64,000 bases of DNA from Platanthera guangdongensis. Lineage: Eukaryota > Streptophyta > Magnoliopsida > Asparagales > Orchidaceae. The position numbers and the translations under genes are program-made. Numbering within the stretch: the stretch's first letter is position 1; each line of letters begins with the position of its first letter. Shown here piece after piece: positions 15,837 through 61,054 of the stretch. The DNA lies in the NCBI GenBank assembly GCA_039583875.1, contig CM077147.1, positions 108,484,124 through 108,548,123 of the forward strand, in the 5' to 3' direction. The notes under the pieces were generated by a model, which saw only the letters and a program-made list of their open reading frames with translations, had not been told where the DNA came from and made no database searches.

Positions 15837-15860
15837 CTTCCGATTCCTCTTCCTAGCCAT
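15837..15860 (-). CDS. gag: Predicted LTR-encoded first gag exon of F
   Basis: ATG and seven codons give MARKRNRK, ending AAG before the donor-like GTAACA. The position matches the equivalent exon in E, G, H, L and N. The partner LTR has the same exon at 25428-25451. The gag exon it would join has been lost by deletion. Confidence 0.55.
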
Positions 15861-22483: not shown

Positions 22484-22507
22484 ATGGAGCTAAAGATGAA
22501 CGCAAGG
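22484..22507 (+). CDS. gag: Predicted LTR-encoded first gag exon of G
   Basis: ATG plus seven codons (MELKMNAR) end at AGG before GTAATG. The 24-nt length, exactly as in the other five elements, keeps gag in frame when joined to 24016. The intron would be 22508-24015 (1508 bp). Confidence 0.65.
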
Positions 22508-23576: not shown

Positions 23577-23924
23577 ATTCCTATTTTGGTATTAGTGGAC
23601 ATTCAAGCTTTAGTGCTGGGTTCTTTGTTGCAACTTTTATAAATTACTTCCGCTAGAATGCTCTGTGTAGGACGCTATGATTGGTTGGATGGTTTCCATG
23701 AGTAACCACCCGGTCTGTCTGTAGTATATGGCGTCGGGCCCCGACCGGACCTACTGCTATATGCTATGCGACGGATAGGGGGTGTTACAATTTGGTATCA
23801 CACTACTGGTTTTTGGTCGGGCTTAAGATGAATTCGTGAGCGAATTCTTTTTAAGGGGTGGTGAGCACATTGTGTGCGTCATCGTTATAACATTAAAAGA
23901 ACCCATGAATGTCCACTTAGGAAT
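23577..23924 (+). ncRNA. U5-leader long-range hairpin of G, spanning the PBS
   Basis: AGTGGACATTCA (23594-23605) is the exact complement of TGAATGTCCACT (23906-23917). ATTCCTA (23577-23583) complements TAGGAAT (23918-23924), with a 10-nt bulge on the 5' side only. The closed loop is 300 nt and holds the LTR end and PBS. It lies wholly inside the predicted gag intron. Confidence 0.6.
23793..23803 (+). other. Primer-binding site of G
   Basis: TGGTATCACAC starts three bases (ATT) after the LTR end, matching the tRNA-Met complement for the first eight bases. Confidence 0.8.
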
Positions 23925-24015
23925 GAAAATACATGTGTTTGAGGAACCTGCGTGTTCCTATAATTGCTGTTTGCAATTTTATTTGGTCGCTTAACGGTGT
24001 TTTGTACCACTATAG

Positions 24016-25136
24016 GTGACCAGAAGTGGCGTTGGGCCGTCGGAACGTCGAGTTTCTGAGGCTAGCGGTGCACCAGATGTTGCTCATGCAACACCTCTAT
24101 CGGCTGAGAACATACGATTGGTGGTCGAAGCAGTGTTGACCTTGATTAATGCACAGCCTACAAGGCAAACGCAGCAGCCCGCTCCTGCGATGGAGCAGGT
24201 ACCGCTGCAAGAGGCTGAGCCGAGGAGAGTGGAACAAGTTGTAGTGGAACTGTTGGTGCCAAGGAGGGCAACCGAGAGGCAGCTTAAGCATATAATGAGC
24301 TTTAACCCTCCGGTATTCTCGGGGTTGGGAACCCCATCTCAGGCTGAAGACTGGCTCTCCAGGGTGAAGAGAGTCATGACAGCAACGGAGACGGAGGAGT
24401 GGCAAATGACCACCATCGCTACGTTTCTTCTGGATGGTGAAGCGAGAATGTGGTGGGAAGGTTTGGAGCTGCACTTATTGCGAGGTAGGCAACTTGTTGA
24501 TGTCTCGATGGAAGAGTTCTCGAGATTGTTCTTGGCTAGATACCTCCCTTCGGCGCAGAAGATAGCATTGGAGAATGAGTTTCTGAAGTTGGTTCAGGGT
24601 GAGAGGAGCGTGGATGAATATCTCCACGAGTTTACTCGTTTGAGTCGTTATGCTAGATCCACTATCGTGGATGAGGAGCGCAAGACTAATCGCTTCTATG
24701 AAGGGTTGAGAGATGAGTTGAGGTTACTACTCTCGGGGCCGATGACGCAGGGTTTCTTAACCTTGGTCAACACTGCCCGGTCCTTGGAGAAGGACATGAA
24801 GAATGTACAAGCAAAGAAAATCTTGGGTGATAGGAAAGCTGAATTCAAAATGCCGATGAATTCAAAGTCTGGCTATCGGAGGTCCTTCAAGAAGCATAGG
24901 ACTTCAGGTCCAGCTCCTTCTGGTGCTTCTGGGGCGACTACGAGTCGGACCCCGGGCGCGTGTTTTACTTGTGGAAAGACAGGGCACTTTGCCCGTGACT
25001 GTTGGAGCGGACGTCCTAAGTCCGAGAGAATGCCGGGAGCGACTTATGAAGAGAAGGGCAAGGCGGTGGAGTCGACCGCGTCCCACTATTCTCCGGCCCA
25101 ACCAAGGGTCTATAATCTTGGCCAACAGGAGGCCAT
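24016..25136 (+). pseudogene. gag: gag main exon of G, open but 3'-truncated
   Basis: The frame begins at GTG directly after an in-frame TAG (TATAG|GTGACC) and is open for about 373 codons: a Pro/Gln-rich N-terminus, capsid domain (RQLKHIMSFNPPVFSGLG to SLEKDMKNV) and CCHC knuckle CFTCGKTGHFARDC near 24961-25002. It breaks off at YNLGQQEAI, about nine codons before the gag-protease intron expected from H. The text beyond 25136 is F's LTR and gives a meaningless tail. With no pol it could act only by supplying Gag. Confidence 0.88.
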
Positions 25137-26455
25137 CGCATACGGCATCTTGCCGCAACGGAAACTCTACGAATCCTTAAAGTTCGTATGCAACATCACC
25201 GAGTCGGACTAACGGTCGCGACTACGGCTTCACCCACAATTCCTAATCCACTAACGGAGCGGATCTCTAATGCAAAACATGCCGGGGACGGACTCAATCA
25301 ACCCGGAGGTTCCTCTTGAACCTTGGCAACCCAAAACCCCTCTCATTTGAGAGATTGGTGCCCAAAAACTAGAAAGAAAAGATGCTAAAGACATGCATCC
25401 TAAAACCGAGAGGAGAAGTGTCGTTACCTTCCGACTCCTCTTCCTAGCCATGGCAAAATAGCCGGATGAAAACCCTCGCAACGATCTAGCCACCACGGAT
25501 CTGGACTCGGCTCGCGATTTGGAGCACCGAAGCTTCTCCTACAGCCCAAACCCTCCTTCACCTTCTTCCTTGCTCTCCCTTCTCTCTAGAATTTAGTAAG
25601 AGAAAAGCTTGAAGAAGAATGAGGGTTTCCAACCCTATTGTCGGACTTAACTCCCCAAGAGCAGTTCTGGACCATCAGATCCCAAAATAAGGGAAAGAAT
25701 GGCCACGACGCATCTGAAAAATAAAACTCCTGGGCCGAACATGACCTGGCACACACCCGTGTCCAGGGCCGTGTCCCCCATTCGCCATCACAAATTGACG
25801 CGCCTAGAACAGCACACGGGCATCCGAAACGCCTGTGTTCGACCCGACACGCCCGTGTCCCTACTGACACGGTCGTGTGGTCGGCCGTGTGCCTCCATCG
25901 ATGCAGCCCCTAAAATAACCCGAGAAGGACACGGCCTAGGACACGCTCGTGTCCCACGCCATGTGCGAAGTCTCGACACTCGTCTACAGCCTTTGTGTCG
26001 ACACCACGGAAAAACGTCGAGCGAAGATCGTCGACCAAGCGGGACACGCCCTGTGATACGCCCGGGTCACAGGCCGTGTTCCCCAGTCTCGACACTCGAC
26101 ACTCGTCGAGTGAACATCGTCGACTGAAGTTCGTCGACCGACCCACACGACCTTGGACACGCCCGTGTCCTAGGCCATGTGCATTGTCTCGACATATTGT
26201 CGAGCGAAAGCGTCGACACCCTGGGCCGAGTGTCGATACGGGCTCGACACACCCTGTGATACGCCCGTGTCACAGGCTGTGTGCCCTGTCTCGATACATC
26301 GTCGAGCGCAAAGTGTCGACTACGCGGCCAAGTCGTCGAGTCCAGCCTGACATGGCCGGGGACACGCCCGTGTCCCGGGTCATATGCCCCCAGCCAGAAA
26401 CCAAAAATTGGCCCGAAACGCAAATCGACCCTCTCTCAAAATCTGGGGTGTTACA
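25137..26455 (-). repeat. Remnant of the 5' LTR of F
   Basis: 1319 bp matching 15545-16863 of F's other LTR, including the first gag exon (25428-25451) and the dyad array, and ending GGTGTTACA before AAACT. The first ~1.27 kb in plus coordinates is missing. The junction has ATC-CATACG-like microhomology between G gag and the LTR. Confidence 0.9.
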
Positions 26456-26460
26456 AAACT

Positions 26461-35126: not shown

Positions 35127-37358
35127 TGTAACACCCTCATCCATCACATGGAATATAATAGAAGGTCCGGTCGGGGACTCATGTCATATTCCACAGACAG
35201 TTAGTGGAGTTACATAAGAATACCAAATTTACAGGATAGGAATACGCATCCTAACTTAGAGCATTATAGAGGAAGCTTTTAAAACTGTTATAAGAACCCA
35301 CACAACACATGAATGTCCACTACAGCCACATTAGGAATGAAATAATATACACCAATACTATGGCCTTATGGCCTTACAATAGTTTGATCAATAAAAGTGT
35401 CTTACAAACTTCATCTCGCAGGCCGACCACACATGAACATAATAAAGTAAACATTTCGCTTTGGCCTTTAAGGGCCAGTACAGCATCAAGGGCTTCAGCA
35501 CACTACTTGCTACTAGGCTCACCTGTTCCTGCATAGGAACAATCCACCGCACGGTGTCAAAACAAGGAAACGGTCAGCTAAAGCTGACCAAATTATAACG
35601 ACCCCACTCCTTAACCTGGGCGGCGGTGCTCCTTCCATGCATTTCATTAGTATAATCAAACATGATAGTGAAAGTACAGTTTAAGCACACTTCACCACAG
35701 GCGTAGGCATGCACGACCACACACCCCATGCACTCAGGGCACATTCTCGGTGAACCCGGTCCACCACCACCCCCAGGACGACAAACATCGTGAGCATTTT
35801 AGTCTTTCCGTCCGAAGCCTAAGCCTCGCCCTCTACGCCAACAGTAAGTGTCACGTACCGTAGGTCTCTTTAACTGAATCGCATAGAGCGGGTATGGTTC
35901 CACTCAACCCGTTGCTCATACTGCCACGTCAATTTAATCCATAGGCATGGGTAAAGCTTCCCCGAGTCTCAAATTGATCATACAATAGTACATAACCGGG
36001 TTATACACAAAGTTGGTGCATGGGCCAAACAAACTGGGCTCCCAGAGCACACAACCTCACAACACTGGCCCCTAGGTCTCAAAGAGATAGGCCTCTCAAC
36101 AATAGAGTATCTGCCGGTGGTATTACTAACACTGCACGGTACCTGGCAGAAATACGTTTCTGCACAGTTTTTCGGGTGCACCTTGGGGTTAGTCCCCAAG
36201 GCTCCCTGCTGCAATCTACCGCGTAGAAACCCGAAAAACAAAATGGCACGGAGTCTTCTCCGGCAATACAAGAATAATGAAAATATCACCGATCTAGACC
36301 AACATGTCCGAATAGGCTTCACACACCATGCCTATGCCCGTACTTCGATTCTGGACTCTATATGCAAAACTACGGGGATAAACTATATCTATCTGAAGGA
36401 ATACCTCATACTCACCGCCCACTCGTGAGAGAGAGTTTCCTATGCAAAAAGGAAGAGGACTTCACATGTCCAAGAAGAGAATCGTTACCCTAGAGGTTCG
36501 CTTCGGCGACATGGAAATCTAGCCGGATGAAAAGCACCGCAACGGACTCGCCTCCGCGGATCTGGACTTGGCTCGCGATTCGAAGCTCCGAAGCTCCAAC
36601 AATGGCCGGAATCCTACTTCTTCTCCCTTTGCTCTCCCCTCTCTCTAACTCTTAGAAAGAGAAATGGCCAAATGGAATGAGGCCTAAACCCTCATTTCTC
36701 GGCTATATACTAACAGGAGTTGTCCTGGGCTGTCAGATCCCTCTAAAATGAAACGAATGGCCTAGATTGACCTTTCAAATCACCTACCTTGGGCCGCACA
36801 CGGCTTGTGACACACCCGTGTCACAGGCCGTGTCTCACTTTCATACAAGAATTCATCGATCTCTGAATCAGGACACGGCTTCTGACACGCCCGTATCAAC
36901 CTTGGACATGCTCGTGTCAAACTTGGACACACCCGTATCACAGGTCGTATGTCTCAATCGACACAGAAATTATCACGCCCAAACAATACACGGCTTTGGA
37001 CACGCCCGTGTCTGTGCTGGACATGCCCGTGTCCGCGCTGTACATGCCCGTGTCCGCGCTGGATACGCCCGTGTTCGACCTGGACATGCACGTGTCCCAG
37101 GGCGTGTTGCACACTCGACACAGTCTGGCAAACACAGAGCAGGACACGACTTTGGACATGCCCGTGTCTGCACTGGACACGCCCGTGTCTGACCTGGACA
37201 TTCCCGTGTCCTAGGCCGTGTTTAACACTCGAAAACTCAGACAATTCCAGAAAAGTACACGGCTCTAGACACGCCCGTGTCACGGGACGTGTGAAACCAT
37301 AATGGCTTCAAAGCTCTCAAAAATACTTCTCGTTCATATTCAAGTTTTTGGGATTACA
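35127..37358 (-). repeat. 3' LTR of L
   Basis: 2232 bp from TGTAACACCCTC to GGGATTACA. In minus sense it has the dyad array (about 37290-36790; GGACACGCCCGTGTCC units, several reduced to ATGCCCGTGTC), TATATAGCC near 36710 as TATA box, the first gag exon at 36512-36489, and a U5 copy of CATGAATGTCCACT on the plus strand near 35308. Confidence 0.9.
36489..36512 (-). CDS. gag: Predicted LTR-encoded first gag exon of L
   Basis: ATG plus seven codons (MSPKRTSR) end at AGG before GTAACG. The remaining gag of L is not in the window. Confidence 0.6.
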
Positions 37359-38290: not shown

Positions 38291-40270
38291 TGTAACACCC
38301 TCATCTGTTATATGACATATAATAGAAGGTCCGGCCGGGGCACCACAACATATGCCACGAACAGGCAGTAAAGTTACAGGTTAATATCAAAAATCATTCG
38401 CACCCTAACTCAGAGCATTCTAGCAGTAGCTTTTAAGTTGCTTGAACTCAACTCATATGACTATCCATAATATATAAACCAGCTTTTATATATAACATCA
38501 CGATGGAATGTTCTCCAAATACACAACAAGTCTGGCCTTATGTCCTTACAGTTAAGCTTTGTAACTATGAGTTTCACACATCGGCACGCAGGCCGACCAC
38601 ACATAAAAATAACATCATATGAACTTCTTTGGCCTTCGAGGGCCATCATAGCATCAGCAATAACAAGGGCTTCAGCCCCCGATTTTCTGCTCGGCTCTCG
38701 TGCACTTGCACGGGATAATCCACCGCAGTGCTGGCAAACAAAGCAACGGTCAGCGTTCAGCTGACCAATTTATAATGACCCTACCCCTTACCTAGGGCTG
38801 TGGTAATCCTTCCCTGTAGGCATAGCATTTTACAAGCAGATATATATATCACATAATGTGCACTCACGCACAGTCAATATATCACAAACGTCGACCATGC
38901 GGCCCAACGCTCCATGCAATTAAGGAACATTCTTGGTGTAACGGAAATACCAGGGTCCCACTGCCGTTTATGGCACATTATTGGTGTACCGGAAATACCA
39001 GGGTACCACCGCCGCTCGAAGGTCCGTTCTTAGTGTACCGAAAATACCAGGGTCCCACCGCCATTCGAAGGTCCGAGGCCCAACGACAAACTTGAGCATT
39101 TCGCAACACGGCCTTCAATTGGAGACTTTAGTCTTAATAGCACGCCGGCCTAATACTCTCATTATGTGTTTCTGCCGAATACCAATAGCCCAGACACTCA
39201 TGGTGGACAACCATAATGCGGAGACGGTTCAGCCTTTTCACGTTGCTCAAATCGCCAGTTCTATGACAAGACTGACGCAGGTCGGCCTCCCCTTATCCGT
39301 TCGGCATGAAGCCTTTTCAAGAGCTCACCAAGATCACAAATAGCCACACTGTCCCCTCGGGACTGGCTTCACAATCGCAGGATAACTAGGAGCCATCGCC
39401 AGCGACACTCACTATCGCCCAGCGTTAGCGACAGAACTCACTTTCCGTCCCCAGCCCTAACCTTATCTGGACCAACCATCCAGGAATCCCTGCAGCCACC
39501 TGCAGTGCCAGAAACACTGGTCTTTCATAGCATACAACACAAGCACTTGGCGAGTATTTTCCTGGAATTTCACTCTAGTACTTCCTGCTACTACCCTTCG
39601 CAGGCACAACCCACGGAATCCACAATCATACTCAACTATACGTGGAGTCCTCTCCGGTGTGCAAAATAAAACATCACCAATCCAGACCAACCTATCTAGA
39701 TGGGCTTCACACAGTATGCCTATTCTGTACTACATATTTCCGGATCTACATGCAAGACATCTTGGGGATATACAGAATCAGTCCAAGGGGAATCCCTCAA
39801 TAATCCATCTTTTGGCGGGGAAACCCATGCATATGCCAAATTAAGGACTTCACATGTCCAAGGAAGAAAGATCGTTACCCATGACGATCTCTTTGGAGTC
39901 ATGGAAAACTAGCCAGATGAAAAGCACCGCAACGGCCTTGCCTCCACGAATCTGGACTCGGCACGCGATTAGAGGCTCTGAAGCTCCACCGGCAGCCGGA
40001 TTCCTCTTCCTCCTCCCTTAATCTCCCCAATCTCTACCCCTTAGAAAGAGGGAGAAAGGCCTTTGATAATGAGGGAGTTTATCCTCAACTCATAGCCTTA
40101 TAACAGCAGGGAGATCTCAAGACCGTTAGATCCTAGTTGAAAGGAATGAACGGTCACGAAAAGCCCTGAAAAACACTTTCCTGGGCCGAACACGGCTTGT
40201 GACACGCCCGTGTCACAGGTCGCGTTCTAGATACGGTGTCGGACACGCCCGTGTCCAGCCCGTGTTCCTC
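38291..40270 (-). repeat. 3' LTR of E, first segment
   Basis: It starts TGTAACACCCTCATCTG and runs to the H insertion (TCCTC, 40266-40270); the rest is 49736-50118, giving about 2363 bp in all. It includes the first gag exon (39902-39879), TTATAAGGC near 40100 as TATA box, and short tandem text near 38935-39075 built on TACCGGAAATACCAGGGT. Confidence 0.88.
39879..39902 (-). CDS. gag: Predicted LTR-encoded first gag exon of E (3' LTR copy)
   Basis: ATG plus seven codons (MTPKRSSW) end at TGG before GTAACG, 24 nt as elsewhere. The 5' LTR copy that would be used is deleted. Confidence 0.55.
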
Positions 40271-42554
40271 TGTAACACCCCCTATCCGTCGCATAGCATA
40301 TAGCAGTAGGTCCGGCCGGGGCCCGACGCCATATACCACAGACAGACCGGGTGGTTACTTATGGAAACCATCCAACCAATCTCAACGTCCTACACAGAGC
40401 ATTCTAGCGGAAGCAATTTATTAAAGTTGCAAAACAAGAACCCAGCACAAGCATGAATGTCCACTAGCAAGATAATAGGAATGTTATTACAAAATACTCA
40501 AAAGTCGGCCTTAAGGCCTTACAAAAGTTTCACTTGTCTTTTACATGTTTTCCAAACTTCGGCACGCAGGCCGGCCATACATGAATAAAACATAAAACAT
40601 TTCACTTGGGCCTTCGAGGGCCAGCTTCGCAGAAAGGGCTTTAGCCCGCTATTGACCGCTTGGTCCAGCTGCACCTGCAAGCAAACAAACCACCGCACGG
40701 TGGCAAACAAAGCAACGGTCAGCAATGCTGACCAAATTATAACGATCCCGCCCCCAACTCGGGGCGGCGATGCTCCTTCCCTGCATTTCATTAGCTTAAG
40801 CGAGCAATATAAATATAGTCATTTCATCACAGGCGGAGGCTCAACGGCCACACACCCCGTGCACTCAGGGCACATTCTTGGTGAACGCAGTCTAAGTCTG
40901 CCGACTCACCGCCATCCTCTCTTGGACGACCAAACTATGAGCAGTTTGTCTTCCTGGCATGGGTCACGGTAATTAAAACCATAGACCGCCGAAGACCCTC
41001 ATCTATGCCAACGGCCCTAATCCGAACGACATAGAGTGGGTACGGTTCCATCTAACCCGTGCTCACAACGCAACGGTAATTTAAACCATATGCGCCCGCA
41101 ACGGTAATTTAAACCATATGCGCAGGTCAAACTTCTACCGAGTCCCATTTTCACCACAAGTCACATAACCCGGTTATGTTCAAGTTGGCTTCCAAGCCAC
41201 CAAGTTGGCAAGACCTCGTGTCCGCCCAGTTTTCCGGGTGCACCTTTGGGTTAGTCCCCAAGGCTCCCTGCTGCAATCTACCGCGTAGAAAACCCGAAAA
41301 ACACCAAATAGCACGGAGTCTTCTCCGGCCTTATGCAATGCAACATCACCGATCCGAACTACATGTCCGGGTAGGCTTCAACCAAAAATGCCTATGTCCG
41401 TTCTCGCATACGGACTCTAAACAACGGGGACTTCACATATCTACCCGAAGGAACGCCTCCAACTCTCTACAAACTCGCGAGAGCGGGCTTCCTATGCAAA
41501 GAAAAGAGCGACTCATGCTCAAGATGAGGATCGTTACCCTTGCGGTCCTCTTTGGCGCCATCGAAAAGTAATCGGATGGAAATCACCGCACTTGCGTTGC
41601 CTCCGTGGATCCGGAGTCGGCTTGCGATTCGGAGCTCCGAAGCTCCTCCAATGGCGGATCTAGCTCCTCTTCTTCTTGCCTTAGCTTTTCTTTCTCCAAG
41701 GGTTTGGAGAGAGATCAAGTGGAAAAAGTGAGGGTTTTCTAAGTCAAAACCCGGGTATATCCCTTCAGGAACAACCCCCAGCCATTGGATCCTCAGTCAA
41801 AGAAATGAACGGCTTCGATTCGGGACTGAAATGCCCAATCTGGGCCGAACACGGCCTGGCACACGCCCGTGTCCAGGGCCGTGTGCCTCATTCGCCGTCA
41901 AAATCAAATCACCTGGAACCTCACACGGGCATCGAACACGCTCGTGTTCGATCTGACACGCCCGTGTTCCAACTGACACGGCCGTGTATCTGGCCGTGTA
42001 CCCCATGATTTTCTCCCGTTTCCAACCCGAGCGCTGACACGGGTTCGGACACGCCCGTGTCCTTGCCCGTGTCACCTTGACACGCCTGGACTCCAGGCCG
42101 TGTACAAGGTCTCGGCACTTCGCGGCTAAGTGTCGACACGGGTCGACACGCCCTGCGACACGCCCGTGTCGCAGGCCGTGTGCCAGGTCTCGACACACTG
42201 TCGACACCAAAGTGTCGACTTCGCGGGACGAGTGTCGACACGGGTTGACACGCCCTGCGACACGCCCGTGTCGCAGGCCGTGTGCCGTGTCTCGACACAA
42301 CTTCAAAGCACTGTGTCGACTCCACGGCTAAGTGTCGACACGGGTCGACACGCCCTGCGACACGCCCGTGTCGCAGGCCGTGTGCCCAGTCTCGACACAA
42401 TGTCGAGACCAAAGTGTCGACTTCACGCCTTAGTGTCGACACAGGCTTGACACGCCCTGGGACACGCCCGTGTCCCAGGCCGTGTGCCTGCAGCCAGAAC
42501 TCAAACTGGCCCAAATTATTCCCCTTTTGCTCCTTTGAGTTTCGGGGCGTTACA
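40271..42554 (-). repeat. 3' LTR of H
   Basis: 2284 bp, TGTAACACCCCC to GGGGCGTTACA. In minus sense it has the dyad array, GGGATATACCCGG as TATA candidate near 41755, the first gag exon copy near 41561-41538, then U5 with the hairpin arm. A short direct repeat CAACGGTAATTTAAACCATA occurs near 41067 and 41100. Confidence 0.95.
41843..42484 (-). repeat. Dyad-rich ~101-bp tandem array in H LTR
   Basis: Four dyads of 22 bp lie at 42153-42174, 42255-42276, 42355-42376 and 42457-42478, a period of 100-102 bp. Arms are CTGCGACACG and CGTGTCGCAG with CC between; the last unit has CTGGGACACG and CGTGTCCCAG. GTGTCGACAC decamers (for example 42130-42139) lie between. The 5' LTR has the same array at about 49018-49662. 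Confidence 0.92.
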
Positions 42555-42575
42555 ACTCTACCCCTCTTAAAAGAA
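42555..42575 (-). other. Polypurine tract of H
   Basis: On the minus strand TTTTAAGAGGGGTAGAGT precedes the LTR start TGTAACGCCCCG. Confidence 0.8.
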
Positions 42576-45500
42576 TTTCGCCCACGAAATTACATAAAGG
42601 GAAAAACATGTACCAAAACTAAAATTTGTACCTGAGCGGAACAACTCCGGATATTCGTCAAGCATCGTCTGCTCTCGCTCCCAAGAGAGCTCCTCACGAC
42701 CGCAATTGTCCCACCGGACTTTGACCATCCTGATCTCTTTATTGCGTAGCCGCTTGACCTCCGAGTCCTCAATCCGCACGGGCTTGACTTTTGTCGTTAG
42801 CCCACTATCCACCGGCACTTGATTGGCCGCGATCACTTGTGTAGGCTCTTGCACCGCCTTCCGAAGCACCGAAATATGGAATACATCATGTAAACCACTT
42901 AGCTCCACTGAAAGCTTCAGCCGATAGGCCGCTTCTCCTACTCGCTCCAGAACCTCGAACGGTCCAAGGTACCTCGGGCTTAGCTTTTTCAATCGCCGCA
43001 CCCGCGAGACACCCTTGAACGGCTTGATCTTCAAGTATACATAATCGCCCACAGCGAACTCCACGTTCCTGTGCTTGGCATTATAGTACTTTGCTTGCCG
43101 GTCCTGAGCGATAAGCAACCTCTCCCGAATGGTTCTCACCAAAGAAGTAGCATCATCCACTTCCGATCGCTTATACAACTTCGACTCGCCCGTTTCTAAC
43201 CAAGACAACGGCGTGCGACATCTTCTACCATATAGGGCCTCGAAAGGCGCCATCTGAATACTTGCTTGGTAGCTGTTGTTGTATGCGAACTCCACCAAAT
43301 AAAGGTGGTCCTCCCACTGCTTTCCGAAGTCCAAGACACACATGCGAAGCATGTCTTCCATCGTTCTATTGACCCTCTCGGTCTGCCCATCCGTTTGCGG
43401 ATGGAAGGCTGTGCTAAACTTCAGCTTTGTTCCCAACATTTGCTGCACCAGCCTCCAATCATTGGACGTGAACCGCCCATCTCGGTCACTCACGATGCTG
43501 CGGGGCACACCATGAAGCCGCACTATGTTATCCACATAAAGCTTCGCCAGCTTCTCCACCGGATCATCCTTCCTATGCGGAATAAAATGCGACACCTTTG
43601 TTAATCGATCGACCACCACCCAAATGGCGTCGTTCCCCTTTTGCGACCTTGGCAAACCATGCACAAAGTCCATAGAGATGTCGTCGAATTTCCACTCCGG
43701 AATAGGCAAGGACTTAAGAAATCCTCCCGGCTTTTGGCACTCCGCCTTTACCAAGGCGCAGGTTTGGCACTTCGCTACATATAGCGCCACATCCTTTTTC
43801 AAACCCGGCCACCAAAATAGCTTCTTGATATCGCGGTACATCTTCGTGCTCCCCGGGTGAATCGAGTACTTGGTATGGTGCGCCTCGTACAACAACTCCA
43901 CCCGTAAATTGCCCACACTTGGGACGCACAAACGACCGTCCTTCCACAGCAATCCGTCCTCCACAACGAATTGGGAATTTGACCCATCCAGAGCCTCTAT
44001 CATGAACTGCTTCATATGAGCATCCATATCCAAAGCCTGCCGAATCCGATCAGCCAGGTCATATTGGACTTCAGTCCAATTCAGCACTGCTTCAGCACTA
44101 GATTGCCTATCCATACAAACAATCTCCAATGCCTCCAGCTCCTGCACCAACCGCTCATCATGCACTGATAGCCAATTCGCTTGAGCTGGGGCTCGGCGAC
44201 TCAACGCGTCCGCAACCGCATTCCCTTTGCCAGGCACGTAGTGGATCTTGAAAGTATAGTCCCCCAGGAACTCCATCCACCTACGCTGCCGCATATTCAG
44301 ATCTTTCTGATCAATCAAATACTTTAGGCTCTTGTGATCGGTGTAGATATCAATCTTCACACCGTACAAATAGTGTCTCCACAGCTTCAAGGCAAAAATC
44401 ACGGCCGCCAACTCCAAGTCGTGGACCGGATAATTCCTCTCGTGCACTTTTAGCTGTCTCGAGCCATAAGCTATCACGCTGCCGTGCTGCAGTAGCACGC
44501 AACCCAAACCACTGCCAGAAGCATCGCTATATATCTCATAGCCTTCGATTCCACATGGCGAACTCAACACAGGCGCCGTGGTCAACCGACACTTCAATTC
44601 CTCAAAAGCTCGCGCGCACTCAGGCGTCCAAACGAACTTATGCTCCTTCCTCGTCAAAGTAGTGAGAGGTAGCGCTATCCGCGAGAAGTTCTCTACGAAG
44701 CGCCTATAATAACCGGCAAGCCCCAAAAAGCTCCGGACTTCTGCTACCGTAGCAAGCTCAGGCCACTCCCGTATCGCAACAATCTTCGCCGGATCCACCG
44801 CAATACCCTCTCCACTCACTATATGCCCAAGGAACGCTACTGAGGATAGCCAAAACTCGCACTTCGAGAACTTGGCATACAACTGGTTTCTCCTGAGTGT
44901 CTCCAACACCAAATGGAGATGCTTGAAGTGATCCTCCTCACTTTGCGAGTACACCAAAATATCGTCGATGAAGACGATCACGAAATGGTCTAGGTACTCC
45001 CTGAACGTCCTGTTCATCAAATCCATAAATACTGACGGCGCATTAGTCAGCCCAAACGGCATGACCGTAAACTCATAATGCCCGTATCTCGTACTAAACG
45101 CTGTCTTCGGGATATCACTCTCCCTTATCCGCAGCTGATAGTACCCAGACTTGAGATCTAACTTCGAGTACACCGTCGACCCGACTAACTGATAAAAGAG
45201 ATCATCAATCCGGGGGATCGGGTACTTGTTCTTCTCAGTCAGCTTGTTTAGCTCCCGATAGTCAATACACAACCTCAAGCTTCCGTCCTTCTTCTTAACA
45301 AAGAGGACCGGTGCGCTCCAAGGCGAAGAACTCGGGCGCACATACCCTTGCTCCAACAACTCTTGCAACTGTACTTTCAGCTCCGCCATTTCCTTAGGCG
45401 CTAGCCGATACGGAGATCGTGACACAGGCTTTGCACCTGGCACTAGCTCGATAGTAAAATCTATCTCCCGTTGTGGCGGGGCTCCAGGAAGATCTGCGGG

Positions 45501-46000
45501 GAACACATCAGGGTATTCCGATACCACTGAAATACAATCCATCGCGGGCTTTGGCTTTGCAACCTCCACTAGTGTAAAGAACAGTTCTGCTCCGGCACGA
45601 ACCGCCTTCACCACCTGAAGAGCAGACATTAACGTCTTGCTCGACCCCTTTAAGCCCGTAAAAGTCGTCTCACGACTTGCTCCCAGCTTTACTTCCTTGC
45701 TACCGCAATCTATATGGGCCTGCTGCTCCGAGAGCCAGTCCATTCCAAATATGACGTCGAACTCCACCAACGGAAGTAAGGACGCCCGCAGGTCAAACTC
45801 CTGCTCTCCAATACGAACTTTAACTTCGCAGATCCTAACCGCTCGCATCGAACACCCATTGGGCAACAACACATCCAACTTGTCCTTCGCCATCGAAGAA
45901 GGGACTCCGATGCGTGATATAAATCCTTCGGACAAGAAGGAGTGTGAAGCTCCCGTATCAAAGAGTGCTCGTGCCGGATTTTCACAAATCAATACAAATC
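42567..46000 (-). CDS. pol: Gag-Pol of H, pol exon: protease, RT, RNase H, integrase, chromodomain
   Basis: Open to the stop at 42567. Counting from the TTG at 46037: protease DTGASHSF from residue 27; RT with [11 protein letters not shown] (256-266) and FIDD (356-359); RNase H with D505, E542, D567 and D610; integrase with HHCC (C757, C760), D790, D851 and E887 (35 residues between the last two); C-terminal domain [11 protein letters not shown] (about 1049); chromodomain-like [20 protein letters not shown] (about 1100-1120). All expected catalytic residues are present. The enzyme set copies the RNA to DNA and inserts it; the chromodomain is thought to steer insertion to marked chromatin. There is no ATG at the start; translation needs splicing from gag. 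Confidence 0.95.
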
Positions 46001-46076
46001 CTAAACAAGCAGTGGTAAGGTAACATATACATAACAAGCATATAAAGGAATTGACTTGCTATAAATTAAACCGTAC
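46001..46076 (-). other. Predicted intron between gag and protease, H
   Basis: 76 bp: donor ACAG|GTACGG (exon ends 46077) and acceptor GCTTGTTTAG|G (46001/46000). Removal joins VVTG to [16 protein letters not shown] in phase 1. Retention ends Gag three codons later at TAA (46068-46066). The pol frame is closed by a TAG inside the intron, so gag and pol frames do not overlap and a ribosomal frameshift is not an easy alternative. Confidence 0.72.
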
Positions 46077-47220
46077 CTGTCACCACGTCAGCTTGTTTAA
46101 TGGCCTCCTGTTGGCCAAGATTATAGACCCTTGGTTGGGCCGGAGCATAGTGGGATGCAGTCGACTCCACCGCCTTACCCTTCTCTTCATAAGTAGCTCC
46201 TGGCCTCCTCTCGGACTTAGGACGTCCGCTCCAACAATCACGGGCGAAATGCCCCGTCTTGCCACAAGTAAAGCACGCGCCCGGGGTCCGACTCGTAGCT
46301 GCCCCAGAAGCACCAGAAGGAGCTGGACCCGAAGTCCTATGCTTCTTAAAGAATCTTTGATAGCCAGACTTTGAAGTAGTCGGCACTTTGAACCCAGATT
46401 TCTTCTCACCCAAGCCTTTCTTCGCTTGCACACTCTTCATGTCCTTCTCCAAGGACCGGGCAGTATTGACCAAGGTTAAGAAACCCTGCGTCATTGGCCC
46501 CGACAGTAACAACCTCAGCTCATCCCTTAAGCCTTCATAAAAACGATTAGTCTTGCGCTCCTCATCCATGATGGTGGAGCTAGCATATCGACTCAACCGC
46601 GTAAACTCGTGGAGATATTCATCCACGCTCCTCTCACCCTGCACCAACTTCAGGAATTCATTCTCCATCGAGATCCTCTGAGTAGAAGGGAGGTATCTTG
46701 CTAAGAACAATTCCGAGAACTCTTCCATCGGAACGTCTATCAGTTGTCTACCTCTCAAATGATGCAGCTCCAAACCTTCCCACCACATCCTCGCTTCCCC
46801 ATCCAGAAGGAACGTAGCGATGGTGGTCATTTGCCACTCCTCCGTCTCCGTCGCTGTCATGACTCTCTTCACCCTAGAGAGCCAGTCTTCAGCCTGCGAT
46901 GGGGTTCCCAACCCCGAGAATAACGGAGGGTTAAAGCTCATTACATGCTTCAACTGCCTCTCAGTCGCCCTCCTGGGCACTATTGGTTCTACAACCACTT
47001 GCTCCATCCTCCTCGGCTCCGCCTCTTGAAGAGGTACTTGCTCCAACACAGGAGCTGGCTGCTGCGCTTGCCTCCCAGGCTGCGCATTGATCACGGCCAA
47101 CACCGCTTCAGCCACCAATCTTATATTTTCAGCCGACAAAGGTGTTGCGGGAGCAACTTCTGGTGCACTACTAGCCTCAGAACCTCGGCGTTCTGACGGC
47201 CCAACACCACTTCGGGTCAC
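46077..47220 (-). CDS. gag: gag main exon of H
   Basis: Open for 384 codons to TAA 46068-46066 if the gag-protease intron is kept. It has a Pro/Gln/Glu-rich N-terminus, capsid domain (RQLKHVMSFNPPLFSGLG through TNRFYEGLRDELR and SLEKDMKSV, about residues 90-250), a basic stretch and the CCHC knuckle CFTCGKTGHFARDC (316-329). It begins at GTG right after an in-frame TAG (TTATAG|GTGACC), with no in-frame ATG near, so I read 47221 as a 3' splice site. Exon 1 (24 nt), this exon (1144 nt) and pol (3434 nt) total 4602 nt, exactly 1534 codons. Gag builds the particle and binds RNA. Confidence 0.9.
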
Positions 47221-47309
47221 CTATAATGGTACAAAACACCGTTAAGCGACCAAATAAATTGCAAACAGCAATTATAGGAACACGCAGGTTCCTCAAACAC
47301 GAGTATTTT

Positions 47310-47658
47310 CATTCCTAAGTGGACATTCATGGGTTCTTTTTACTGTTATTACGATGACGCACACAATGTGCTCACCACCCCTTAAAAAGAATTCGCCCAC
47401 GAATTCACTTTAAGCCCGACCAAAACCAGTAGTCTGATACCAAATTGTAACACCCCCTATCCGTCGCATAGCATATAGCAGTAGGTCCGGCCGGGGCCCG
47501 ACGCCATATACCACAGACAGACCGGGTGGTTACTTATGGAAACCATCCAACCAATCTCAACGTCCTACACAGAGCATTCTAGCGGAAGCAATTTATTAAA
47601 GTTGCAAAACAAGAACCCAGCACAAGCATGAATGTCCACTAGCAAGATAATAGGAATG
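47310..47658 (-). ncRNA. U5-leader long-range hairpin of H, spanning the PBS
   Basis: CATGAATGTCCACT (plus strand 47627-47640, U5) is the exact inverse complement of 47318-47331 (leader). TAGGAATG (47651-47658) complements CATTCCTA (47310-47317). That is 22 pairs, with one 10-nt bulge (47641-47650) on the U5 side. The loop of about 295 nt holds the LTR end and PBS. Confidence 0.65.
47433..47442 (-). other. Primer-binding site of H
   Basis: On the minus strand TGGTATCAGA begins three bases (ATT) after the LTR end, matching the plant initiator tRNA-Met 3' end. Confidence 0.88.
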
Positions 47659-48712
47659 TTATTACAAAATACTCAAAAGTCGGCCTTAAGGCCTTACAAA
47701 AGTTTCACTTGTCTTTTACATGTTTTCCAAACTTCGGCACGCAGGCCGGCCATACATGAATAAAACATAAAACATTTCACTTGGGCCTTCGAGGGCCAGC
47801 TTCGCAGAAAGGGCTTTAGCCCGCTATTGACCGCTTGGTCCAGCTGTACCTGCAAGCAAACAAACCACCGCACGGTGGCAAACAAAGCAACGGTCAGCAA
47901 TGCTGACCAAATTATAACGATCCCGCCCCCAACTCGGGGCGGCGATGCTCCTTCCCTGCATTTCATTAGCTTAAGCGAGCAATATAAATATAGTCATTTC
48001 ATCACAGGCGGAGGCTCAACGGCCACACACCCCGTGCACTCAGGGCACATTCTTGGTGAACGCAGTCTAAGTCTGCCGACTCACCGCCATCCTCTCTTGG
48101 ACGACCAAACTATGAGCAGTTTGTCTTCCTGGCATGGGTCACGGTAATTAAAACCATAGACCGCCGAAGACCCTCATCTATGCCAACGGCCCTAATCCGA
48201 ACGACATAGAGTGGGTACGGTTCCATCTAACCCGTGCTCACAACGCAACGGTAATTTAAACCATATGCGCCCGCAACGGTAATTTAAACCATATGCGCAG
48301 GTCAAACTTCTACCGAGTCCCATTTTCACCACAAGTCACATAACCCGGTTATGTTCAAGTTGGCTTCCAAGCCACCAAGTTGGCAAGACCTCGTGTCCGC
48401 CCAGTTTTCCGGGTGCACCTTTGGGTTAGTCCCCAAGGCTCCCTGCTGCAATCTACCGCGTAGAAAACCCGAAAAACACCAAATAGCACGGAGTCTTCTC
48501 CGGCCTTATGCAATGCAACATCACCGATCCGAACTACATGTCCGGGTAGGCTTCAACCAAAAATGCCTATGTCCGTTCTCGCATACGGACTCTAAACAAC
48601 GGGGACTTCACATATCTACCCGAAGGAACGCCTCCAACTCTCCGCAAACTCGCGAGAGCGGGCTTCCTATGCAAAGAAAAGAGCGACTCATGCTCAAGAT
48701 GAGGATCGTTAC

Positions 48713-48736
48713 CCTTGCGGTCCTCTTTGGCGCCAT
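48713..48736 (-). CDS. gag: Predicted LTR-encoded first gag exon of H
   Basis: ATG plus seven codons (MAPKRTAR) end at AGG before GTAACG. Joined to 47220 it gives MAPKRTAR-VTRSGVG in frame; the intron is 47221-48712 (1492 bp). The exon lies about 195 nt after the TATA candidate, so in the RNA it is near the 5' end. Confidence 0.7.
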
Positions 48737-48928
48737 CGAAAAGTAATCGGATGGAAATCACCGCACTTGCGTTGCCTCCGTGGATCCGGAGTCGGCTTGC
48801 GATTCGGAGCTCCGAAGCTCCTCCAATGGCGGATCTAGCTCCTCTTCTTCTTGCCTTAGCTTTTCTTTCTCCAAGGGTTTGGAGAGAGATCAAGTGGAAA
48901 AAGTGAGGGTTTTCTAAGTCAAAACCCG

Positions 48929-48937
48929 GGTATATCC
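48929..48937 (-). promoter_or_regulatory. Candidate TATA box of H 5' LTR
   Basis: GGATATACCCGGG on the minus strand, downstream of the dyad array and upstream of a purine-rich leader. The same position carries TATA-like text in E, G, L and N. Confidence 0.5.
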
Positions 48938-49735
48938 CTTCAGGAACAACCCCCAGCCATTGGATCCTCAGTCAAAGAAATGAACGGCTTCGATTCGGGA
49001 CTGAAATGCCCAATCTGGGCCGAACACGGCCTGGCACACGCCCGTGTCCAGGGCCGTGTGCCTCATTCGCCGTCAAAATCAAATCACCTGGAACCTCACA
49101 CGGGCATCGAACACGCCCGTGTTCGATCTGACACGCCCGTGTTCCAACTGACACGGCCGTGTATCTGGCCGTGTACCCCCATGATTTTCTCCCGTTTCCA
49201 ACCCGAGCGCTGACACGGGTTCGGACACGCCCGTGTCCTTGCCCGTGTCACCTTGACACGCCTGGACTCCAGGCCGTGTACAAGGTCTCGGCACTTCGCG
49301 GCTAAGTGTCGACACGGGTCGACACGCCCTGCGACACGCCCGTGTCGCAGGCCGTGTGCCAGGTCTCGACACACTGTCGACACCAAAGTGTCGACTTCGC
49401 GGGACGAGTGTCGACACGGGTTGACACGCCCTGCGACACGCCCGTGTCGCAGGCCGTGTGCCGTGTCTCGACACAACTTCAAAGCACTGTGTCGACTTCA
49501 CGGCTAAGTGTCGACACGGGTCGACACGCCCTGCGACACGCCCGTGTCGCAGGCCGTGTGCCCAGTCTCGACAAAATGTCGAGACCAAAGTGTCGACTTC
49601 ACGCCTTAGTGTCGACACAGGCTTGACACGCCCTGGGACACGCCCGTGTCCCAGGCCGTGTGCCTGCAGCCAGAACTCAAACTGGCCCAAATTATTCCCC
49701 TTTTGCTCCTTTGAGTTTCGGGGCGTTACATCCTC

Positions 49736-53600: not shown

Positions 53601-53679
53601 CTAATACAAACACATAATACACAAGCTACAAACAAGGTATGAAATAGCATAAGTAGCAATCAAATATGTTACCGCATAC
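53601..53679 (-). other. Predicted intron between gag and protease, E
   Basis: 79 bp: donor CACTG|GTATGCGG (exon ends 53680) and acceptor TTTGTATTAG|G (53601/53600). Splicing joins VVTG to [15 protein letters not shown] in phase 1. Retention gives a TAA three codons on. The site matches F and H though the intron text differs. Confidence 0.65.
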
Positions 53680-54752: not shown

Positions 54753-54841
54753 CTATAGGTGGACAAGACACACATTAGCGACCTTGCACAAGCAATAACA
54801 ACAATATAGGAACGCGCAGGTTCCTCAAACAGGTGTATTTG

Positions 54842-55188
54842 CATTCCTTAGTGGACATTCTTGAGTTCATTAATGTTATAGTGGGTCGTATTTACATGTG
54901 CACGCCACCCCACAAAAGAATTCGACCACGAATTCGAAAGAGGAAGACCGAAATGCCTCTGATACCAAAATATAACACCCACATCCGTTACATGACATAT
55001 AATAGAAGGTCCGGCCGGGGCACACAACATATGCCACGAATAGGCGGCGAAGTTACAGGTTAATATCAAAATCATTCGCACCCTAACTCAGTGCATTCTA
55101 GCGGTAGCTTTTAAGTTTCTTGAACTCAACTCATATGAATGTCCACAATATATAAACCAGCTTTTATATATAACATCACGAAGGAATG
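54842..55188 (-). ncRNA. U5-leader long-range hairpin and PBS of E
   Basis: GAATGTCCAC (55137-55146) complements GTGGACATTC (54851-54860), and AAGGAATG (55181-55188) complements CATTCCTT (54842-54849). The loop is about 277 nt. It encloses the PBS GCCTCTGATACCA (54955-54967; TGGTATCAGAGGC on the minus strand). Confidence 0.6.
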
Positions 55189-55223
55189 TTCTCCAAATAC
55201 ACAACAAGTCTAGCCTTATGGCC
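54971..55223 (-). repeat. 5' LTR of E, first segment
   Basis: It begins TATAACACCC where the partner has TGTAACACCC, a G-to-A change of the terminal dinucleotide. It matches 38291 onward up to the N insertion at TGGCC (55219-55223), then resumes at 61060. Confidence 0.88.
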
Positions 55224-57283
55224 TGTAACGCCCCCACTCATCACATGGAATATAATAGTGTCCAGTCAGGGCCCCACGCCATATTTCACAGACAAGCGGT
55301 GGAATTACGTGTGGAAATCAATGTCTACTCATCAAAATCTACTCGTACCCTAACTCAAAAAATTCTAGTGCAGCATTTTAAGTTGGATGAACTCAGCTCA
55401 ATGAATGTCCACTAATATACAAACTCCACATTTATATATCAAAGTCATGAATGTATACAATACACACACACACACACACACACATGTACTTATGGCCTTA
55501 TAAGTTTCTCTTTACACATACATGGCTTTCTTCGCATGGCCTTCAAGGGCCTTTAGCAGCAAGCCTCCATTCCGCTCAAATCAATTCAATCATCAGCACC
55601 TGCAATTAGATAACCACCCAAGAGCAGCAAACAAAGTAACGGTCAGCATTAGCTGACCAATTATAACGACCCTACCCCTTACCCAGAGCAGTGGTTCCTT
55701 CCCTGTATGCATTGCCATCACAAGCTATCAATCTACCAATCACAACCATATCACAAATGCCGGTATCCACCAGACGCTCCGTGCACTCAGGGCACCTTAT
55801 TGGTGTACCAGGGGTCCCAGTCGTCCACCGCCGATCAGAGGTTCTTCACTTGTTGGTTGGGCGGTTCAATCCTAGTCCACCAATCCCGCGAGCTCGTGAC
55901 ATTTCGTCCATACCACTCAGAGGTATTACCTCACAACATCCACAAACAACCAGAGCAGATCGACACACCGAAGTGGTGTAGTAAGCCGGGTTTATCGTGC
56001 TCCCCAGGCATTAACACCAATCGACCCCTCACCTATTTCTGATCGACCCACCCCTGTGGTACACCAAGCCGGGTTTAACTTGGCTCCCCAAGCGTTTCCA
56101 CTAATCGATCCCTCATCTATACAGATCAACCCACCCTAGTGGTGCAGCAGGTCGAGTTTATCTGCGCTCCCCAGGCGCGCTACCAATTGATCTCTCATCA
56201 CAACCAGGAGCTTACTCAAAGCATCCATACATTCATAAGCACATCCATACATCCATCCAACAAAGCATAAACGGTTCATATCATCAAATCCAGGGAGTCT
56301 TCTCCGGTTTACCCATAATCACCACCAATCCAGACTACCCGTCCAGATGGGCTTCACACAGCATGCATATGCCGTACTCCACACTTCCAGCTCGAGATGC
56401 AAACACAACCAAGGAATCGCTTGCAATATCCACCTCTTGGTGGAGGATCCCATGAACATGCATAAAGAAAGGACTTCAATGTCCAAGAAGGAGATCGTTA
56501 CCCTTGAAGATCGCTTTGGCGCCATGAAGTAGCCGGATGCAAGTCACCTCCTCGGCTCTTCCTTCACGAATCTGATCTCGGATCTTCGCTCCGCACTTCG
56601 CATCTCCTCCAGTAGTTGGTTTCCTCTTCCTCCTTCCTTTCCCTTGCTCTCCATCTCTCTTGGAAAGTGAGAAGAAGAAGGAGAATGAAAATGATGGAGT
56701 AACTCCTCATTCTCGGCCTTATATCCACAGGGAAACTGCTTGGACACTTGGCTCCAGGATAAGGGAACGAACGGCTCAGATTTGTCCAAGAATTAGCTGA
56801 ATACGGCCTGACACGCCCTGTGACACGCTCGTGTCACAGGCCGTGTCACTTAAGCAGTAGGCAACCAACTTAAATCCAACCAGTACACGGCCGTGTGACA
56901 TGCCTGTGTCACACCCTACACGCCCGTGTCATGCCCGACACGCCCGTGTCCAATAGCCGTGTACTTCACACAACATACTCCCCACTTCACCCGAGAGGGA
57001 CACGACCATAGGACATGCATGTTTCCCTGGCCATGTACACCAGGACACACCCGTGTCCACCAGTACACGCAGTACCACCTAAATCCGCAAAGGACATGCC
57101 ATGTGACACGCCCATGTCACAGGACGTGTACCATGCACTCGACGATCGTCGACCAAAATTCGTCCACCACACATCCAACTGTCCAACCCGAGAAGGACAC
57201 TCCCTGGGACACGCCCTGGGACACACCCATATCCCAGGCCGTGTCACCCAAACCTGAACCACAAGTAGGTTTGGGGTGTTACA
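55224..57283 (-). repeat. 3' LTR of N
   Basis: 2060 bp, TGTAACGCCCCC to GGGGTGTTACA. It has an (AC)n microsatellite at about 55461-55484 (about 12 units; only about 6 in the partner near 59258-59270), tandem text GATC(G/A)ACCCACC near 55950-56200, a first-exon copy near 56525-56502 and the dyad array near 56800-57250. Confidence 0.9.
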
Positions 57284-58852: not shown

Positions 58853-58940
58853 CTAGCTATGTACAAAACACCATTAATCAGACATGTCATAACGGTAAAT
58901 ATACATTGACTACACACTCACGCACTTTACGTGCATGGAA

Positions 58941-59252
58941 TACATTCCTAGTGGACATTCGTGAGTTCAATTATGTTCTTCCCTCCCAAACAATCTCAAC
59001 CTGGCTCTAATACCACTTTGTAACGCCCCGACTCGTCACATGGAATATAACGGTGGGTCCGGTCGGGGCCCCACGCCATATTTCACAGACAAGCAGTGGA
59101 ATTACGTGTGGAAATCAAAGTCTACTCATCAAAATCTACTCGTATCCTAACTCAAAATATTATAGCGCAGCATTTTAAGTTGGATGAACTCAGCTCAATG
59201 AATGTCCACTAATATACAAACTCCACATTTATATATCAAAATCAGGAATGTA
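58941..59252 (-). ncRNA. U5-leader long-range hairpin and PBS of N
   Basis: GAATGTCCACTA (59200-59211) complements TAGTGGACATTC (58949-58960), and AGGAATGTA (59244-59252) complements TACATTCCT (58941-58949). The loop is about 240 nt and holds the PBS GCTCTAATACCA (TGGTATTAGAGC on the minus strand, near 59004-59015; one change from the tRNA-Met complement). Confidence 0.6.
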
Positions 59253-61054
59253 TACAACACACACACACAAGGCCTTATGACCTTACAAGTTTCTCTTTAC
59301 ACACACATGGCTTTCTTCGCATGGCCTTCAAGGGCCTTAAGCAGCAAGCCTCCATTCCGCTCAAATCAATTCAGTCATCAGCACCTGCAATTAGATATTC
59401 ACCCGAGAGCAGCAAATAAAGTAACGATCAGCATTAGCTGACCAATTATAACGAGCCTACCCCTTACCCAGGGCAGGGTTCATTCCCTGTATGCATTGTC
59501 ATCACAAGCTATAAATCTACCAATCACAGTCATATCATAAACGCCGGTATCCACCAGACGCTCCGTGCACTCAGGGCACCTTATTGGTGTACCGGGGGTC
59601 CCAGTCATACACCACCGATCAGAGGTTCTTCACTTGTTGGTTGGGCGGTTCAATCCTAGTCCACCAATCCTACGGGCTGGCGACATTCCGTCCATACCAC
59701 TCAGAGGTACTACCTCACAGCATCCACAAACAACCAGAGCAGATCGACCCACCCAAGTGGTTTAGCAAGCCTAGTTTATCGTGCTCCACAGGCATTACCA
59801 CCAATCGACCCCTTCACCTATTTCCGATCGACCCACCCCTGTGGTGTAGCAAGTCGGGTTTAACTCGGCTCCCCAAGCGTTGCCACCAATCGATCCCTCA
59901 TCTATCTAGATCAACCCACCCTAGTGGTATAGCAGGTCAGGTTTATCCGCGCTCCCCAGACGTGCTACCAATTGATCTCTCATCATAACCAGGAGCTTAC
60001 TCAAAGTATCCATACATTTATAAGCACATCCATACATCCATCCAACAAAGCATAAACCGTTCATATCATCAAATCCACTGAGTCTTCTCCGGTTTACCCA
60101 TAATCATCACCAATCCAGACTACCCGTCCAGATGGGCTTCACACAACATGCATATGTCGTACTCTACACTTCCGGCTCTAGATGCAAACGCAGCCAAGGA
60201 ATTGCTTTCGATATCCACCTCTTGGTTGAGGATCCCATGCACATGCATAAATAAAGGACTTCGATGTCCAAGAAGGAGATCGTTACCCTTGAAGATCTCT
60301 TCGGCGCCATGAAGTATCCAAATGGAAGTCACCGCCTCAGCTCTACCTTCACGAATCCGATCTCAGATCTTCGCTCCGCACTCCGCAGCTCCTCCAGCAG
60401 CTGGTTTCCTCTTCCTCCTTCCTTTCCCTTACTCTCCCTCTCTCTTGGAAAGTGAGAAGAAGGAGAATGAAAATGAGGGAATAACTCCTCATTCTCGGCC
60501 TCATATCCACAGGGAGACTGCTTGGACACTTGGCTACAGGATAAGGGAACGAACGGCTCAGATTTGTCCAAGAATAGGCTGAACACGACCTGACACGCCC
60601 TGTGACACGCCCGTGTCATAGGCCGTGTCACTTAAGCGGTAGGCGACCGACTCAAATCCAACCAGTACACTACTGTGTGACATGCCCGTGCCACACCCTA
60701 CATGCCCGTGTTATGCCTGACACGCCCGTATCCAATAGCCGTGAACTTCACACAGAACACTCTCTACTTCACTCGAGAGGGACACGACCATGGGACACGC
60801 CCGTGTCCCAGGCCGTGTACACCAGGGCACACCCGTGTCCACCAGTACACGTAGTCCCGCCTGAATCCGCAAAGGACACGCCCTATGACACGCCCATGTC
60901 ACAGGCCGTGTACCCTGTACTCGACGATCGTCGACCAAAATTCGTCGTCCACACATCCAACTGCTCAACCCGAGAAGAACACGCCCTGGGACATGCTCGT
61001 GTCCCAGGCCGTGTCACTCAAACCTGAACCACAAGTAAGCTTTGGGGTGTTACA
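59019..61054 (-). repeat. 5' LTR of N
   Basis: 2036 bp, TGTAACGCCCCG to GGGGTGTTACA. It has TATAAGG-like text (GGATATGAGGCC here, GGATATAAGGCC in the partner) before the first gag exon, and a dyad array at about 60590-61015. It differs from 55224-57283 at many positions, so N is much older than H. Confidence 0.9.
60287..60310 (-). CDS. gag: Predicted LTR-encoded first gag exon of N
   Basis: ATG plus seven codons (MAPKRSSR) end at AGG before GTAACG. Joined to 58852 it gives SSR-VPRSGAG in frame; the intron is 58853-60286 (1434 bp). Confidence 0.65.

Follow-up and report, generated by a model that had tools for sequence, protein, structure and literature searches.

The LTR element that we denote as H and its relatives probably carry two spliceosomal introns: one through which a short coding exon in the LTR, of M-x-P-K-R type (MxPKR exon), would be spliced over the primer binding site (PBS) to gag, and another that would separate gag from protease. 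An LTR start for gag, with splicing across the PBS from either the MxPKR exon or a second LTR exon considered below, is very likely. We also lean, with less assurance, toward a broader reading in which the two introns act as a switch, the spliceosome deciding whether a given primary transcript serves as genome, as Gag mRNA, or as Gag-Pol mRNA. A preliminary description of this DNA had proposed a gag start in the LTR that is completed by splicing, and our analysis supports that interpretation, most of whose testable sequence predictions were borne out; its observation was correct and is part of a larger arrangement, in that intron 2 and the RNA structures within intron 1 were missed there.

The window, by which we mean the whole stretch of 64,000 nucleotides that was analysed, is plant DNA crowded with nested Ty3/gypsy elements. 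The features of element H are as follows.

40271-49730, minus strand: element H, with TCCTC flanking both ends
47446..49730, minus strand: H 5' LTR
48713..48736, minus strand: H exon 1, MAPKRTAR, in the 5' LTR
47221..48712, minus strand: H putative intron 1, GTAACG...TTATAG, 1492 nt
47431..47442, minus strand: H primer binding site, TGGTATCAGACT
46077..47220, minus strand: H exon 2, gag with a GTG opening (VTRSGVGPSERR), Retrotrans_gag and zinc knuckle
46001..46076, minus strand: H putative intron 2, 76 nt, 45% T, with the Gag stop TAA inside
42570..46000, minus strand: H exon 3, protease, RT, RNase H, integrase, and weak chromodomain

H looks like a young element: the LTR pair is 99.7% identical, its gag is open over 384 codons, and its pol frame over 1163 codons from stop to stop. 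Pfam domains in H follow the order Gag-PR-RT-RH-INT, with a weak C-terminal chromodomain (E 0.00099, 19.4 bits, cut-off 25.1); membership in the Tekay/Del chromoviruses is putative, and the name follows the preliminary description. A first protein search with the gag ORF as query returned a single match. Among the matches listed, the most identical proteins were from Platanthera zijinensis and P. guangdongensis, and residues 1-480 of H pol are 90% identical to the gene model P0009, which points to an orchid as the probable source of the DNA. Viral contigs searched by gag and by exon pattern yielded no relatives, and 40 kb beside the window yielded no additional LTRs of the H/G/E/N/L/M/K group. 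The gag genes of E and N are broken copies, with stops at codon 144 and codon 77, respectively, and that of G (24016..25136, plus strand) is truncated. Element G (21476-25136, plus strand) ends abruptly within gag and directly adjoins a K LTR (25134-26456), and no 3' LTR of its own was seen.

A single gag-pol ORF with its own ATG is usual for the Tekay/Del clade, and such an ORF is absent here, since gag has no ATG and a stop separates gag from pol. Most groups of such elements have a single ORF (PMC6317226). The gag frame instead opens with GTG immediately after an in-frame TAG in each of the four copies for which this had been claimed, at 47223 (H, minus), 24013 (G, plus), 54755 (E, minus), and 58855 (N, minus). 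The first Met is encountered at codon 72 in H, 59 in G, 42 in E, and 18 in N, a position that is not conserved. Comparison of H and G over codons 1-58, which precede Met in both, gave 17.0/47.2 synonymous and 11.0/126.8 replacement differences (dN/dS ~0.19). Over the 41 codons that precede Met in both members of a pair, H-E gave 15.0/33.5 and 27.0/89.5 (~0.57) and G-E gave 21.0/33.8 and 28.0/89.2 (~0.31), respectively. Over the 70 or 62 codons before the first Met of H, dN/dS was 0.15 for H-G, 0.23-0.33 for four pairs, and 0.73 for E-N, although in G, E, and N the first Met already falls within this stretch, and both E and N are broken. H-G is the clean pair for this purpose, and pairs with the broken E are weaker. 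Collectively, these ratios support constraint on gag codons that precede any Met, which suggests that translation should enter gag from upstream.

A candidate for the upstream entry is found in the LTRs, where an ATG frame of eight codons followed by GTAAC or GTAAT is present in nine LTR copies of the window. It lies where the preliminary description had placed it, with the copy at 25451 reading MARKRSRK. In addition to exon 1 of H, the copies are the following.

41538..41561, minus strand: H exon, 3' LTR copy
22484..22507, plus strand: G exon 1, MELKMNAR, degenerate
56502..56525, minus strand: E exon 1, MAPKRSSR
60287..60310, minus strand: N exon 1, MAPKRSSR
39879..39902, minus strand: L LTR exon, MTPKRSSW
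36489..36512, minus strand: M LTR exon, MSPKRTSR
25428..25451, minus strand: K 5' LTR exon, MARKRSRK
15837..15860, minus strand: K 3' LTR exon, MARKRNRK

The ATG is kept in 8/8 distinct LTR exons, and the start reads M-x-x-K-R in H, E, N, L, M, and K and MELKM in G. When aligned, the ATG, a lysine codon, and the GTAA are fixed points and much of the remaining stretch is variable. A raw count of ATG..GTAA frames was dropped as evidence: the 13 matches on both strands are about twice the mean of 30 first-order simulations (mean 5.8, maximum 10), and the count is not striking alone, whereas the position of the matches is. A profile of the ~150 nt upstream of the exon matched nine places in the window, each of them directly followed by the exon; since the profile was built from these LTRs, this shows only that the window holds no near relative without the exon. 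TATA-like sites were identified by pattern at about -200 from the exon ATG in five of the eight exons (H, G, E, L, and M), and in H not one ATG intervenes between that site and the exon ATG. If transcription is assumed to start ~30 nt past -200, no other ATG precedes that of the exon in six of eight (H, N, L, M, and both K), whereas earlier ATGs are present in E (-129 and -78) and G (-162).

Selection on the peptide had been suggested from the similar, basic character of these sequences, and this suggestion held in part. For codons 2-8, pN/pS was 0.25 in the set H, E, N, L, M, 0.27 when N was left out, and 0.39 when K took the place of N, and overlapping control windows in the flanks were as low in 0/163, 0/163, and 0/150 cases, respectively; G was dropped from these sets post hoc because its exon looks degenerate. 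With G included, however, pN/pS was 0.50 and 8/149 control windows were equally low, and the K family gave no signal of selection on the exon (277/524 windows as low). Among the 25 of 30 K family loci that could be aligned, the ATG was present in 25/25 and the donor GTAA in 22/25, having been lost in 3/25. Overall, the evidence supports an LTR exon that resembles protein-coding sequence and appears to be under constraint. Gag models of other plants begin alike, including MAPKRATRST (P0058, P0094), MPPKRASTT (P0006), MASKRTTRAR (P0064), and MPPRRVYERR (P0096), in a comparison among 122 listed proteins of which many are fragments or have other starts. The LTR exon may thus represent an old gag N-terminus that was severed by an intron.

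The junction 48713^47220 that had been put forward for H is correct, with the exon at 48736-48713, the putative intron at 48712-47221, and gag from 47220. The corresponding intervals in the other window copies are as follows.

22508..24015, plus strand: G putative intron 1, 1508 nt
54753..56501, minus strand: E putative intron 1, 1749 nt
58853..60286, minus strand: N putative intron 1, 1434 nt

The phase of donor and acceptor agrees in all five testable cases (H, G, E, N, and genomic K copies), with eight whole codons before the donor and the acceptor at a codon boundary, as read from the sequences at each side and not from a joined translation. In H, G, and E, a branch-like TTAAC or CTAAT motif is present 21-22 nt 5' of the acceptor; N has CTGAT/TTAAT, and four of six K copies have CTGAT. 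The donor of H, AGG|GTAACG, is weak, as it lacks the G at +5 of usual donors; this counts against the proposed splicing but would fit partial splicing. A V-T reading occurs on both sides of intron 1 in H, where GTAACG follows the donor and GTGACC the acceptor; it is possibly a trace of how the intron originated and possibly due to chance.

To extend these observations beyond the window, we compared copies of the K and H families in the genome. Ten K stretches were taken and a leader was present in nine; the tenth, L046, has pol-like sequence directly after the PBS and was excluded. K copies have the LTR exon MARKRSRK|GTAACG ~1.58 kb before the LTR end and, after the PBS and leader, a putative acceptor CTGATTCCTTGTTTCTTGTTTTCTTGAAG|AGTGCAAGC in phase 0 with the gag opening SASNEAGTSRAREELSASSATAPG. 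This acceptor, TTCTTGAAG|AGT with a pyrimidine tract, is likewise in phase 0, is unrelated to that of H, and is not accompanied by a GTG at the gag start. All six K copies read (of the nine with a leader) have their first in-frame Met at codon 38, and most of the K copies read contain stops. For the H family, 20 stretches were taken from 40 scored LTR matches; 13 start with a PBS and the other seven showed none. These 13 5' copies all have the acceptor followed by VTRSGVGPSERR, all have putative intron 2 (12 by pattern and L050 by eye), and none is intronless. The exon, acceptors, phases, and intron positions are features of the DNA itself, with acceptor and intron 2 in 13/13.

Putative intron 2, which separates the zinc knuckle from the protease, is newly found here and had no place in the preliminary description. 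Beside the H interval given above, it was recognized in two further elements.

53601..53679, minus strand: E putative intron 2, 79 nt
20301..20372, minus strand: K putative intron 2, 72 nt

Position and phase (VVTG^) are the same in 3/3 elements (H, E, and K). Each interval starts with GTACG or GTATG, ends with TAG, contains in-frame stops, and is rich in T relative to its flanks (42-48% vs 13-37%). Leaving it out gives VVTGF[VI]L in the same phase in all three elements, and six Platanthera gene models read VVTGF across it as if spliced (P0009, P0012, P0022, P0023, P0027, and P0053). The gag model P0001 ends VVTGTV, as do the gag frames of 10/13 H-family copies, and four models (P0096, P0101, P0108, and P0109) have VVTG or VITG followed by different residues. 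An intron-like gap of 117 nt (GTACGCC...CGCCAG; L070, minus strand, index 5913-6030) also interrupts a decayed element from a different lineage that neighbours the window; in this one copy it shares the gag-protease position and the phase (VIIG^IVFIGG).

Gene models of Platanthera that reach the gag start bear on the choice of the LTR exon. None of the five uses the MxPKR exon. Three (P0022, P0023, and P0027) join other residues exactly at VTRS, one (P0043) starts MTRSG, and one (P0009) joins elsewhere; these models may be purely computed and were compared as proteins rather than as DNA. The proposal that a start in the LTR exon is spliced to gag is supported as regards the acceptor, which three models appear to use, and finds no counterpart in them as regards the MxPKR exon. 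The first exon of P0023 and P0027 ends AGLRA[ED], which matches an LTR site near 47750 in H, and the N-terminal stretch of P0022 resembles, by eye, the E leader read in frame.

47733..47753, minus strand: H rival LTR exon, MAGLRAE|GTTTGG, the site apparently used by P0023 and P0027

The models therefore speak for the acceptor and for an LTR start, but from the rival LTR exon, which suggests that the start may be elsewhere in the LTR than in the MxPKR exon, or not only there. Accordingly, the foremost alternative is that this second LTR exon (MAGLRAE in H, MTGLRAV in G, MLSGLHAE in K) is spliced to the same acceptor, with MxPKR as an upstream ORF or an alternative first exon. The site lies about 270-307 nt before the LTR end and is an ATG-started, phase-0 frame in H, in G (MTGLRAV|GTTGGT), and in two of six K copies (L010 and L032), where the donor GAG|GTAGAC is the better one. 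However, a pattern scan gave no match in E, N, M, or 4/6 K copies, and L has an open frame with GTG in place of ATG and another ATG further up. The donors GTTTGG of H and GTTGGT of G look poor, and RNA transcribed from the LTR promoter would carry the MxPKR ATG ahead of the second exon. The M-x-x-K-R start of H, E, N, L, M, and K, moreover, resembles whole gag N-termini such as those of P0058 and P0094. We consider this alternative rather unlikely, and favour splicing from the MxPKR exon.

It is improbable that Gag is instead made from unspliced RNA, through GUG or other non-AUG initiation or internal entry, with the LTR exon as a uORF. The GTG that opens gag directly after TAG in 4/4 window copies would fit such a reading, but the gag start of K is AGT, putative intron 1 carries many ATGs (34 in H; 34-53 across H, G, E, and N), three gene models apparently join another exon at the gag start, and non-AUG starts are rare in plants. 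That the elements are decayed or non-autonomous, with the missing start and the gag-pol break as damage, fits the broken or truncated E, N, and G and the stops in most K copies read, but is very improbable given that H looks young, that 13/13 H-family 5' copies share the acceptor and intron 2, that position and phase of the break coincide among H, E, and K, and that Platanthera models read across it; unless they all ride on another element, copies that multiplied recently would hardly all have lost both the start of gag and its continuity with pol by chance.

Under the two-intron reading, transcription would begin in the LTR upstream of the short coding exon. Intron 1 would begin at this exon, take in the remaining LTR sequence together with PBS and leader, and end at an acceptor that abuts the first codon of gag, and intron 2 (72-79 nt) would divide gag from protease and contain the Gag stop. 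That the PBS falls within putative intron 1 had already been proposed and is borne out by the H coordinates. Unspliced RNA would then be the genome, RNA lacking intron 1 the Gag mRNA, and RNA lacking both introns the Gag-Pol mRNA. From the sequence features we infer splicing itself, the choice of the LTR donor, the roles of the three RNAs, and any order of the two splicing steps.

Putative intron 1 also includes sequences with the potential to form RNA structures.

47627..47640, minus strand: LTR arm of a predicted long-range stem, AGTGGACATTCATG
47318..47331, minus strand: leader arm of the predicted stem, CATGAATGTCCACT
47389..47406, minus strand: palindromic leader hairpin of H, GAATTCG-TGGG-CGAATTC

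Complementarity between LTR and leader flanks the PBS and is exact over 12-14 nt in H, G, E, and N. One K copy (L042) has a 13-nt LTR-leader pair of different sequence, which suggests covariation. Matches of this length were reached in 0-3 of 200 mononucleotide shuffles. The LTR arm of the longest match is 443 nt before the LTR end in E and 160-197 nt in the others. Minimum-energy folds of the last 260 nt of the LTR with the leader, computed for unshuffled sequences only, paired 33-68 LTR bases with the leader in 5/5 elements. The stem may act in packaging or priming. In H, G, and E, the PBS is followed closely by a palindromic hairpin, GAATTCG-TGRK-CGAATTC, whose loop varies; leader hairpins by themselves were not significant (z -1.76 and -1.28).

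Unspliced RNA would keep the PBS and the predicted stem and have no AUG-started gag, as suits genomic RNA, whereas RNA without intron 1 could not be reverse transcribed. Since intron 1 holds both the PBS and the LTR-leader stem, RNA without it would never be a template and genomic RNA would never make Gag, so that Gag would have to act in trans. Intron 2 would persist only if its removal is coupled to that of intron 1: were it removable alone, copies lacking intron 2 would be expected, and none was present among the 13 H-family copies. This switch would hold with either LTR exon.

How a single RNA of an LTR element is allotted to translation and to copying is still an open problem. If the proposed switch is true, the answer is encoded in the DNA, with a gag start codon in the LTR that is usable only once the PBS has been spliced out. 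Strict trans-packaging is then predicted, and the survival of introns in an element that replicates through RNA is explained. Annotation of large plant genomes may also misread gag starts and gag-pol 'frameshifts'.

Comparison with known systems draws on excerpts of the sources cited. According to the excerpt of a 2025 review, plant LTR elements are generally without introns, with Ogre and EVADE as exceptions (PMC12786077). In Ogre (Ty3/gypsy, Tat), as proposed here, the intron is retained in some transcripts, yielding a shorter protein, and splicing opens the full polyprotein (PMC6317226). This trait is present by sequence in H, E, and K, where a retained intron 2 would end the first ORF and splicing would join the second. 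The Ogre intron, however, lies between gag-pro and RT, whereas intron 2 lies between the zinc knuckle and the protease and is joined by an intron over the PBS. EVD/EVADE (Ty1/copia, Arabidopsis) also sets Gag versus Gag-Pol by splicing, but there splicing removes the protease, and the excerpt names no intron upstream of gag (PMC12786077). Diaspora (Ty3/gypsy, soybean) has predicted donors in the LTR and predicted acceptors around the gag start (PMC1142308). Its gag has its own start codon, its authors call the relevance of the predicted sites unknown, and they stated that introns upstream of gag had not been reported as of 2005 (PMC1142308). In the excerpt of a paper on CRM, a search by terms for splicing, introns, or start codons found no passage (PMC3059260). 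Within the literature searched, which lay mostly outside subscription papers, and in the excerpts seen, no precedent was found for a required intron upstream of gag.

Closer parallels are found in three systems. BARE1 (Ty1/copia, barley) has a short intron at the gag end and separate RNA pools for translation and copying, which differ by promoter, cap, and tail (PMC3735527). Splicing in BARE1 yields Gag only, whereas here the spliced intron 2 junction would open Gag-Pol and the unspliced form would give the Gag stop. In Drosophila iERVs (ZAM and Beagle subclades), splicing joins a main exon to a short peptide-coding exon that lies upstream of gag (PMC12992720). The spliced product there is Env, whereas here it would be Gag. 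Avian retroviral env uses the first gag codons, similar to the env exon of Drosophila iERVs. RTBV P4, of a plant pararetrovirus, is produced from a short leader ORF spliced to a distant ORF (PMC5902531), although RTBV is not an LTR element and the spliced product is P4. As far as these excerpts go, BARE1, the Drosophila env exons, and RTBV P4 are the nearest precedents for the arrangement described here.
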